Assembly (NCBI GenBank): GCA_019054805.1
Contig: JAHQIY010000006.1
Span: 5,518,001-5,582,000, forward strand
Reading direction: 5' to 3'
DNA from: Brachionus manjavacas
Taxonomy: Eukaryota > Rotifera > Eurotatoria > Ploima > Brachionidae
DNA: 64,000 bases
The first letter of the stretch is position 1. The number at the start of each line of letters is the position of its first letter. A program made the translations under genes and the position numbers. Below, piece by piece: positions 37,428-46,269 of the stretch. The notes beneath the pieces are model-generated. The model saw only the letters and a program-made list of their open reading frames with translations, ran no database searches and had not been told where the DNA came from.

Positions 37428-38618
37428 ATGTCTGATGCCGAAAAATTGAATATTGACAGTATCATAGCTCGTCTTTTAGAAGGTAAGAATTTTTTCTACT
37501 AAAATTGATAAGCATGCAGCGAAAAACGTTTTATTTAAAATTTTTAATCAAGTCAATCTATTTAATTAAGTAAGAAACTCAAAACCAGGCAAAAATGTCC
37601 AACTGACCGAAAATGAAATCAAAGGTCTGTGCTTCAAGTCACGCGAAATCTTTCTCAGTCAACCAATTTTGCTTGAACTCGAAGCCCCACTCAAAATATG
37701 CGGTATTCCATTTTTTTCCCATTTTTTCCCCAGAAATTTTTTTTCATCAAAATTTAATTTTGAACAAAAAAAAGGTGATATCCATGGCCAATACTATGAC
37801 TTATTGAGACTGTTCGAGTACGGTGGCTTTCCCCCCGAGTCCAATTACTTGTTTCTCGGCGACTATGTCGACCGAGGCAAACAGTCCCTTGAAACCATTT
37901 GTCTTTTGTTGGCATACAAAATAAAGTTTCCGGAAAACTATTTTCTCCTTCGAGGCAATCACGAATGCGCCAGTATAAACCGTATCTACGGTTTTTACGA
38001 CGAGTGCAAGCGCCGCTACAACATCAAATTGTGGAAAACGTTCACAGATTGTTTCAACTGTTTGCCAGTGGCAGCGATCATTGACGAGAAAATATTTTGC
38101 TGCCATGGTGGCTTGTCGCCTGATTTGCAATCAATGGAACAAATAAGAAGAATTATGAGACCGACTGATGTGCCCGATCAGGGTCTGTTGTGCGACTTGT
38201 TGTGGAGTGATCCGGACAAAGACATTACTGGCTGGGGAGAAAATGACAGAGGTGTATCGTTCACTTTCGGAAGTGAAGTAGTTTCAAAATTTTTGCAAAA
38301 ACACGATCTTGATTTAATCTGTCGAGCACATCAAGTTGTCGAAGATGGATACGAGTTTTTTGCCAAGCGACAACTGGTCACTCTTTTTTCGGCGCCAAAT
38401 TACTGCGGTGAATTCGACAACGCTGGTGCTATGATGAGTGTAGATGAAACTTTAATGTGTTCATTCCAAGTAGGGCTTTTTTTTCGTTTTTTTTTTTTTT
38501 TTCTTTAAATTTTTTTCAAAAAAAAAAGATTTTGAAGCCCTCAGACAAGAAAAAAATGAGTATCAATAGTTCGAACCGTCCATCAACCCCGACTCGCAAT
38601 GGTTTTAAAAAAATTTAG
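37428..38618 (+). CDS. Serine/threonine protein phosphatase PP1 catalytic subunit, copy 1
   Basis: Four exons, 37428-37482, 37571-37702, 37775-38469 and 38529-38618, give 323 residues (vertebrate PP1 is about 330). PP1 dephosphorylates Ser/Thr as part of many regulatory holoenzymes in nucleus and cytosol. It reads [18 protein letters not shown] then [12 protein letters not shown]. The metal-site motifs GDIHG (D64, H66, as in mammalian PP1), GDYVDRG and RGNHE, the acidic-groove residues and [11 protein letters not shown] are all intact. The C-terminal tail keeps the CDK-site context TPTR but ends FKKI. Exon 2 starts at 37571 because the acceptor AATTAAG restores the conserved VR..KPGKNV block; a later AG (37587-37588) would delete six residues. 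Acceptors of introns 2 and 3 follow runs of 8-10 A. COMMD5 copy A follows 363 bases downstream. Confidence 0.95.
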
Positions 38619-38981
38619 CCTGTATGTTTGATACTAATTTTTATGTATTTAAAAAGAATAGAAAAGAATAAAAATGCATTTTTTTTCAAAAAGTTTTTTG
38701 TGTCATTTGTCTTTTAATTAAAAACTTGAACAAGGGTTTAGATTTTGTTTTGTCTGTACATTCAATTGTGCTAAACGAATTTGGAGGTATCATTCAAGAC
38801 AGCAAACATCAAATTTAAAAGAATTATTGTTAAAATCGAATTTAAAAGTTTCAATTTTTTCTAATTGTATAAATTAAATAAATTATAAAAACATGACTAA
38901 ATAATTTTTCAAAACCAGTGTTGTAAATTACATTGTAAGATGAAGAGTTTTATTTTCTCTGATTTTATTCATGTTAGAATA

Positions 38982-43100: not shown

Positions 43101-45113
43101 ATAATTTGTAACTAGTTCCAAGCATATACATTTAGAAATTGTGCATTTTATTTTAAGTGTTTTTGTTTATAATTTGGATTAATGTTTTTTTTCTCAATGA
43201 TAAGAGAAGCTTTTTCAAAAAAATTAGGAATTCTTTGAAAAATTTTTATCATTTTATCTTGAAAATCTGGGTAGCTAGAGTAGCAATTATTTTACAAGGT
43301 GTAATTATTGTTGGCGAATTTAGCTTTATGAAGCAACAGAACTTTATAATTCTAATTAATGCTTTAGTTAAATTTAAAGAAAAGCTTTTTTTTTGTTTGT
43401 TTAAAATTTATATGTCTAGAGCTAGAAATTTTTTTTTTTTTTCGAAGAGTTTGCATTGATTTTAGGTTGATGCCAATTTGCCACTCATTAATTATTCAAG
43501 TCATTCATGGCAACCGAATGAAATTATTTTTTTCAAAAGGTCAATATCGAAAATTCAAATTAAACATTTTATAAAATTATTTTACGCAAAAAAAATTGTC
43601 AATCACATAAGAGAGCTTGTAAATGAACCGAATGATTTCACATCCGTTCTTATCAAGTATCTCTAATTTAATTTTTTCAATAGATGAATACTTAGAAAAT
43701 TTTTTATTAAATGTCATTTGGAAATATTTTTGTTTCAAAAAATGCTAAGTTTTAGATTTCGATCCAAACCCAGTTCTAAGACTTGAAAAATGTTTTTGAT
43801 TTATTACAAGAAAAATAAATTACATCACAGGAAGAAAATTATATGCTATCTTCGTTGACGTCAAAAATTAGTCACAAATTACTTAACTCCTAATCAAAGA
43901 TGGGTTAAATCTGTCAGGCAAATATTTAGAAAAAATTACCAAGAATGCGAATATTTGTCTAGAGCTGGTTTTTCCTTTGAATCAAATTTTTAAGCTGTAA
44001 TTATATGAATTTTTTGATCTAGCGGGGACTTTTTTCTAACTCAGCATTTAGATTCACAATTCCAAATAATTATTTTGCATCCCACATTTTTCTTAATTCT
44101 ACTAATCCTAAATAGCTTAAGTTACGGGTCCCGAAACAAAAGAATTTATAAAATTCGGCATTTTGACGCAATAAATTGGAGATTTTAATCCCGGCAATAA
44201 TTTCTTATTTAAAATGTGAACAACGCGTCTATTTCATCAGCGCCTAAAGCCAGATAAGTTATTAATCATCACAAAGCTGTCTAAGTTGATTATAAATTTT
44301 TGATTATTGATTCAGCTATAATAAGATCTATTATTAAAAAAACTTGGCGTTCTTTTTCTTTAAATTTTTTTTGTTGGAAGATTTAAGTCTTATCGCAATA
44401 TCTTTTTTATCATTATAAAATAATAATTTAAAAGCATTTTATTGATTTATTTCCTCGAAAAAAAGAGCTTTTTGAATAAATGACGTGTTGTTTTATAAGT
44501 CTGCTGATGTAATTAAGTCGTGATGCTTTAAACTGAATGAGAGCATAGTTGAGGAATTTTTTTTAAATTGAGGATATAAGGGCGAAATTCCGGAGTAAAA
44601 TTCTTGGGCGTATCAAAGTTAGGCCTATTTGCAAAGGGCTTTGTTTTAGGCAAATATTGACTTAATGGGGTTTTTAATGAATTATTGCAAAACATTTATT
44701 GTTGCAAAAAAAAATAAAAAATAAATCTCAAAATAATAAAATTTTATACAAAAGATATAACCGTTGCTTAGGACAACCTTTCTATTAGTTTTTTTATTCT
44801 TTTATATTGCAACAAAGGAGTTAAAGAAAAATAAAAAAAAACATCTTAAAAATATTATTTTAACTTTTTATTTTATTTTATTCTGAGCACCTAATTATTT
44901 TTTTTCTTACAATATTTCGCATTTAATTTACTAAAGCGTGTTTTGTGTGGTACCTGACGAAAGATTGATTTTTTAAATCTATTTATTCTGCTTTTTATTA
45001 AAGATTTAAAAAAATGAAGCGGAATTTATAAACATTAAAGAGTGTGAAAACAAAAGAAATTTAAACAAATCCAATAAAAAATTAAAGCCAACTGATTGCA
45101 GAGAGAAAAAGTA
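40123..45113. other. Spacer between the two PP1-COMMD5 blocks
   Basis: Five kilobases with no supported gene. Two adjacent frames (43157-43459 and 43463-43666) are open. The second is preceded by an acceptor-like TTTTAG and could be an exon of an unknown gene, but no motif is recognisable. A few LINE-like words occur near 43830-43990 without a coherent frame. Confidence 0.4.
43463..43666 (+). other. Possible unidentified exon
   Basis: An open frame follows an acceptor-like GATTTTAG and encodes about 67 residues with mixed composition (contains SHSWQPNEIIFFKR and NEPNDFTSVLIKYL) up to a stop. I do not recognise a family. There is no clear partner exon, so it may be chance. Confidence 0.15.
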
Positions 45114-46269
45114 ATGACTGATATGGAAAAATTTAATGTTGACAGCATTATAGCTCGCTTATTAGAAGGTAACTTTTTGTATTTTTGAAAAAATTGAAAA
45201 ATTTAACAATAGACTTAAAGTTCGTACCGCAAAACCAGGCAAAAATGTCCAACTGACCGAAAATGAAATCAAAGGTCTGTGCTTCAAGTCACGCGAAATC
45301 TTTCTCAGTCAACCAATTTTGCTTGAACTCGAAGCCCCACTCAAAATATGCGGTATTCCATTTTTTTCCCATTTTTTCCCCAGAAATTTTTTTTCATCAA
45401 AATTTAATTTTGAACAAAAAAGGTGATATCCACGGCCAATACTATGACTTGTTGAGACTGTTCGAGTACGGTGGCTTTCCCCCGAGTCCAATAACTTGTT
45501 TCTCGGCGACTATGTCGACCGAGGCAAACAGTCCCTTGAAACCATTTGTCTTTTGTTGGCATACAAAATAAAGTTTCCGGAAAACTTTTTTCTCCTTCGA
45601 GGCAATCACGAATGCGCCAGTATAAACCGTATCTACGGTTTTTACGACGAGTGCAAGCGCCGCTACAACATCAAATTGTGGAAAACGTTCACAGATTGTT
45701 TCAACTGTTTGCCAGTGGCAGCGATCATTGACGAGAAAATATTTTGCTGCCATGGTGGCTTGTCGCCTGATTTGCAATCAATGGAACAAATAAGAAGAAT
45801 TATGAGACCGACTGATGTGCCCGATCAGGGTCTGTTGTGCGACTTGTTGTGGAGTGATCCGGACAAAGACATTACTGGCTGGGGAGAAAATGACAGAGGT
45901 GTATCGTTCACTTTCGGAAGTGAAGTAGTTTCAAAATTTTTGCAAAAACACGATCTTGATTTAATCTGTCGAGCACATCAAGTTGTCGAAGATGGATACG
46001 AGTTTTTGCCAAGCGACAACTGGTCACTCTTTTTTCGGCGCCAAATTACTGCGGTGAATTCGACAACGCTGGTGCTATGATGAGTGTAGATGAAACTTTA
46101 ATGTGTTCATTCCAAGTAGGGCTTTTTTTTCGTTTTTTTTTTTATTTTTTCTTTAAATTTTTTTCAAAAAAAAAAGATTTTGAAGCCCTCAGACAAGAAA
46201 AAAGCTGGCGCTGCTCCGAACCGACCGTCTACTCCGACAAGAAATGGATTAAAGGCGAAGAAAGTGTAA
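45114..46269 (+). pseudogene. PP1 catalytic subunit, copy 2, with two frameshifts
   Basis: The exon plan matches copy 1: 45114-45168, 45221-45352, 45423-46115 and 46177-46269. Exon 1 ([18 protein letters not shown]), the start of exon 2 ([10 protein letters not shown]) and the tail ([20 protein letters not shown]) are diverged from copy 1 but look conserved and functional. Exon 3 carries two 1-base deletions relative to copy 1: a C6 run is C5 near 45479-45483, and a T6 run is T5 near 46003-46007. Each shifts the frame, and a conserved Tyr codon after the first (SNYL) reads AAC. As written it cannot make a full phosphatase. Because both lesions are in homopolymers, consensus errors are a real alternative, in which case this is a live second PP1 gene. 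An AATAAA is at 46377-46382. Confidence 0.85.

Follow-up and report, generated by a model that had tools for sequence, protein, structure and literature searches.

The window analysed here, a 64,000-nucleotide stretch of contig C6 of Brachionus manjavacas, holds two PP1 genes in tandem, copies A and B, with a spacing of about 7.65 kb. Each is followed by a gene in which a COMM domain was found and for which COMMD5, as used in the initial annotation, is a candidate name. Exon borders of the PP1 genes were placed by eye from splice sites and protein. The features, by window position, are as follows.

37428..37482, plus strand: PP1 copy A exon 1, diverged from B and C
37571..37702, plus strand: PP1 copy A exon 2, common with B from 37580; A and C agree also at 37571-37579
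37775..38469, plus strand: PP1 copy A exon 3, the whole exon within the tract
38529..38618, plus strand: PP1 copy A exon 4 including the stop, with a tail of 29 residues
37580..38555, plus strand: proposed conversion tract of copy A, 98.98% to 45230-46203 (0/10,000 shuffles)
38982..40122, plus strand: COMM-domain gene beside copy A (Pfam COMM_domain, 2.7e-11 on 39907-40119), middle exons modelled in part
45114..45168, plus strand: PP1 copy B exon 1
45221..45352, plus strand: PP1 copy B exon 2, which starts VRTA
45423..46115, plus strand: PP1 copy B exon 3, frame broken as assembled by 2 one-base run shortenings relative to copy A
46177..46269, plus strand: PP1 copy B exon 4 including the stop, with a tail of 30 residues
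45230..46203, plus strand: proposed conversion tract of copy B (BLASTN)
46804..47656, plus strand: COMM-domain gene beside copy B (Pfam COMM_domain, 8.4e-13 on 47441-47653), middle exons modelled in part

Copy A is intact, with an open frame of 323 residues carrying the Metallophos (PF00149, 1.1e-48) and STPPase_N (PF16891, 4.4e-23) domains. Its best match among solved phosphatases is 1fjm, PP1-alpha (E 7.9e-207), and its GDIHGQ, GDYVDRG and RGNHE motifs are identical in that alignment. A search of the genome with the tract gives three near-identical places: A, B and a third copy, C, which lies inverted on the minus strand at C6:5598771-5597544, about 15.5 kb past the right end of the window and 33 kb beyond copy B. 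Judged by their sequence, A, B and C are PP1 catalytic-subunit genes of the PPP family. Between copies B and C, two long frames (window 49298-54104, minus strand) each carry ABC-transporter membrane and ATPase domains, and a reverse-transcriptase fragment (L007:1678-2136, minus strand; PF00078, 2.1e-09) lies a few kb off copy C. At window 14176-14466, about 290 bases are self-complementary, with 79% identity to their own reverse complement.

The BLASTN alignment of 37580-38555 with 45230-46203 shows 98.978% identity over 978 columns, introns included. The initial annotation had reported about nine differences in 975 bp between A and B; the near-identity stands, with an exact count of ten differing columns out of 978, made up of 4 substitutions and 4 indel events. 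It had also described identity running across two introns between edges that both fall within exons, and this is what the alignment gives: introns 2 and 3 are nearly identical in A and B, the left edge lies within exon 2 (first common base 37580) and the right edge within exon 4 (last common base 38555). The divergence claimed for the surroundings, namely VRNS against VRTA at the start of exon 2 and differing exon 1, intron 1 and C-terminal tail, was seen as well. The clustering of identity is beyond chance for each of the pairs A-B, A-C and B-C, since none of 10,000 shuffles, in which ungapped columns were permuted and segment scores compared, reaches the observed segment score.

A base-by-base alignment with synonymous divergence inside and outside the tract had been proposed as a check, and its outcome agrees with the claim. 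For A-B, the core has a dS of 0.012 (2 differences at 165 synonymous sites) vs. 0.95 outside the tract (15 differences in 28 sites over 42 codons). The other core values are 0.012 for A-C and 0 for B-C (268-270 codons throughout), and the other outside values are 2.8 for B-C and saturation for A-C (42-44 codons). Exon 1 taken by itself (18 codons) gives 0.73 for A-B and saturation for A-C, and dS values for exon 1 and the tail are only rough because both are short (18 and 27-29 codons). Intron 2 shows zero substitutions among A, B and C, and intron 3 across A-C shows run-length differences only, plus changes in C close to its 3' end. Near-identity bounded by old, diverged flanks (A-B dS of 0.012 vs. 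0.95), together with homogenised non-coding DNA in introns 2 and 3, is the pattern by which gene conversion is recognised.

The COMM-domain pair is a non-homogenised internal control of the same duplication. Of 172 aligned residues, the A-side and B-side genes have 71 in common, and their synonymous sites are saturated (pS 0.79 over 172 codons), which bears out the earlier statement that the genes adjoining PP1 are strongly diverged. One search with the first exon of the B-side gene as the query matched only the A- and B-side genes. Within C6 5508001-5592000 and 5593000-5612000, the PP1 genes themselves were the only homology joining the loci of A, B and C at a cut-off of E 1e-5 and at least 80 bases.

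Near-identical copies lying close together are usually young duplicates, and the tubulins L055 and L057, with 0 substitutions over about 3.6 kb, look the part; a recent segmental duplication whose ends diverged afterwards, with no conversion, is the first alternative to be weighed for the PP1 genes. It is very improbable, and in its simple form it was rejected, since the synonymous sites on either side of the tract contradict it: exon 1, the tail and the COMM-domain genes are homologous yet near or at synonymous saturation, while the introns between them carry no or few substitutions, and the edges are exonic and differ from pair to pair.

A fourth PP1 gene, D, on another contig (G000:C2:2019599-2018373, minus strand; L008), bears on a second alternative, that purifying selection or codon bias alone keeps the cores alike. 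PP1 is extremely conserved, which speaks for selection, but the D protein is 90% identical to A-C over the larger stretch and its core is nevertheless saturated at synonymous sites against A, B and C (133-136 differences in 166-168 sites). Selection on protein also does not account for introns 2 and 3 being nearly identical in A-C. This explanation, contradicted both by the introns and by D, was rejected and retains a negligible probability. D has a single coding intron, at a site without an intron in A-C, and a longer C-terminal tail. GC-biased conversion was also looked for, and the gap in third-position GC is small, with 0.47-0.48 in the core of A-C, 0.40 in that of D and 0.37-0.48 in the ends.

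The three copies allow the transfers themselves to be counted. Core substitutions number 4 for A-B, 3 for A-C and 1 for B-C. At the left edge (37567-37579), all six differing columns unite A and C against B, and at the right edge (38503-38555) all nine unite A and B against C; of the latter, five are in intron 3, where they may amount to one run-length shift, and four are in exon 4. The tract edges thus vary by pair, with A matching C on the left and B on the right. This implies two or more transfers, since a single transfer is hard to reconcile with these pair-specific edges. A comparison with D, made by eye, suggests that A acquired three substitutions of its own, two of them silent and the third Phe to Tyr, and that B acquired one, Tyr to Asn.

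On these grounds we consider it very probable that A, B and C are old PP1 duplicates whose cores were overwritten by at least two recent ectopic conversions. There is good support for ectopic gene conversion acting within an old duplication. The process named in the initial annotation holds, given the contrast in dS, the carried introns and the saturated COMM-domain genes; its two-copy picture gives way to three homogenised members and at least two transfers. We infer that the transfer was non-reciprocal and that selection set the tract edges. The sequence of events may have been as follows. A and B would have been duplicated long ago jointly with the COMM-domain gene, after which purifying selection on the enzyme would keep the catalytic coding core alike while non-coding DNA drifts. 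Repair or recombination between neighbouring copies could then take one copy as the template for another, and exon 1, intron 1, the tail and the intergenic DNA would be too diverged for such a transfer. At least two recent transfers, A-B and A-C, direct or via a lost intermediate, would each have overwritten about 1 kb and taken introns 2 and 3 along with it, with the short exon 1 behind its diverged intron and the fast-changing tail escaping conversion. Since conversion needs similar sequence and selection preserves coding DNA, transfers would reach no further than the coding core and its enclosed introns, and a transfer limited in this way would explain both the exonic edges and the diverged COMM-domain neighbours. 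Such a mechanism agrees with the published examples of Amy and Hsp70 in Drosophila and of beta-tubulin in Leishmania.

Similar blocks occur in tubulin, actin and HSP70, which were picked as conserved families and are a non-random sample. Two beta-tubulins on C7 (L062 and L063; inverted, 15 kb apart, dS 0.048) have almost the same sequence between the start codon and the variable tail, an intron included; outside this block their alignment is at background, and a permissive BLAST gives scattered short matches only. In the alpha-tubulin pair L053/L058 on C4 (inverted, 10 kb apart, dS 0.035) the block opens at the start codon and extends beyond the gene as far as DNA was fetched, and between L054 and L055 (dS 0.047) it runs from about 220 bases before the start codon to shortly past the stop, so that in neither of these two pairs is the coding end the limit on both sides. 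An inverted pair of actins on C3, 7.6 kb apart, also has a block opening at the start codon (261 bases of each were read), which brings the near-identical blocks opening there to three pairs (L062/L063, L053/L058 and the C3 actins). The match between two actins on C48 covers 1,475 query bases, and that of an HSP70 pair on C5 covers 1,734 bases, stopping before the domain match ends. For comparison, distant tubulins have a dS of 1.1-1.2 (three comparisons), seven other full-length actins are 77-85% identical and nine other HSP70 matches, mostly partial, 67-71%. The actin and HSP70 blocks may instead reflect recent duplication of a short segment.

Within the alpha-tubulins, L055, L056 and L057 (C4:7072167-7087637) show 0 mutual substitutions over the gene and its 3' side, with all differences being in run lengths, and the whole fetched 5' side matches between L055 and L057 and not in L056. 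L060 (G000:C4:7059274-7059906) is an alpha-tubulin near the open copies, with a 380-aa frame whose end is changed. Its comparison with L056 gives 36 coding mismatches, 4 mismatches outside the coding part and one one-base coding run loss. Because only 13 of those 36 are silent, L060 looks truly decayed, and it is probably a real pseudogene whose coding part is changing faster than its flank.

Whether the PP1 case exemplifies a general habit is a matter on which we come close to an even judgement, leaning slightly against. The reading would be that conversion between neighbours (to some 45 kb) runs across many conserved families and that purifying selection sets the edges, since coding DNA alone would remain similar enough for pairing; blocks would then open with the start codon or within an early exon, usually end within the variable C-terminal tail and carry the enclosed introns along.

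The initial annotation treated copy B as a plain PP1 copy and missed its broken frame. As assembled, B carries two frame-breaking one-base losses and C one, each within a run of six, and A is intact. Shortened six-base runs number 3 of 11 in the PP1 cores vs. 0 of 26 among control runs of six or more (Fisher 0.021), where the zero is partly by construction, the controls having been chosen free of stops, and the Fisher value is only indicative. These controls were 16 PPP and tubulin matches, with D, near-identical copies, split matches and several single matches left out. In the split matches L013/L025, L021/L041, L022/L040, L026/L033/L039, L075/L065 and L076/L073, and likewise in the inner-stop matches L036, L067, L070 and L071, the excess is at least about 43 bases, which is intron-sized and not a one-base break. 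Excess lengths were reckoned by hand from match tables, with L032, L034, L038, L072, L074 and L077 standing outside the count.

B and C could be true pseudogenes whose frames broke after conversion. B has two breaks and C one, and at one site B has Asn in place of the Tyr of A, C and D. Mis-calling does not affect every multi-copy gene, as eight of nine near-identical copies of alpha- and beta-tubulin have open frames; among these eight, six have one coding run of six and two have none. L060 looks like a real pseudogene within a converted tubulin family. Against this, B and C have preserved the reading frame in their private exon 1 and tail, with a ten-residue motif kept and a dN of 0.07-0.21, well under a dS that ranges from 0.68 to saturated. 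All three breaks are one-base losses in six-base runs, and B and C are nearly without other change, unlike L060. One of the two nearly identical C3 actins likewise has a run of four shortened by one base, and between the tubulins L055 and L057 there are 5 run-length differences and 0 substitutions. Consensus error is thus the likelier reading, and probably the right one, for B and C, with true pseudogenes a less likely second. The frame question leaves the conversion result untouched.

A consensus that is suspect in this way might seem to favour an assembly artefact, in which assembler or polishing step made a second core, exchanged cores or rendered them alike; the three one-base coding run shortenings do make B and C suspect at run lengths. 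However, the core stands in three separate places, each with its own flanks on both sides, run-length errors cannot swap in about 1 kb with introns, and the edges are pair-specific. We regard such an artefact as very unlikely.

With ectopic conversion as the preferred reading, one old duplication that sets a homogenised PP1 beside a diverged COMM-domain gene makes a clean natural experiment, and three copies with differing tract edges make separate transfers countable. If the wider pattern is true, neighbouring tubulin, actin, HSP70 and PP1 copies in rotifers would give far too young divergence times, and frame breaks in such copies would need a read check before being labelled as pseudogenes.

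The process is a known one, and the PP1 genes add a new case of it from the Brachionus plicatilis complex. The part of the literature covered contained no publication dealing with conversion among genes for the PP1 catalytic subunit or with rotifer PP1, and one study is said to describe pseudogenes of a PP1 regulatory subunit. From the same rotifer group come the mmr-b units, whose near-identity is put down to concerted evolution in the portion of that account used here (PMC3495898); these are tandem repeats within one gene, whereas the PP1 copies are separate, spaced genes with introns. Primers from the portion of PMC3495898 used here match the genome exactly at one place for mmr-b and at four for mmr-a, with two more for mmr-b at one mismatch, and reversed control primers have zero matches in the genome, which places it within or close to the Brachionus plicatilis complex. 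The mmr loci L044 and L045 have open frames.

For Leishmania beta-tubulin, what we have of the source describes homogenised coding sequence with locus-specific non-coding flanks (PMC1533823), and the PP1 genes share both features. The Leishmania loci are, by the same partial account, on different chromosomes, whereas the PP1 copies are homogenised within about 43 kb and D, on another contig, is not. In Drosophila, according to the sections of PMC3924832 drawn on here, ectopic conversion at Amy is limited to the coding sequence with the flanks evolving independently, and at Hsp70 conversion occurs in inverted pairs. As far as those sections go, the likeness to PP1 lies in the linked copies, the conserved proteins, the homogenised coding sequence and the inverted pairs, and the PP1 case differs in having three copies, in carrying introns along and in placing its edges within the coding ends.
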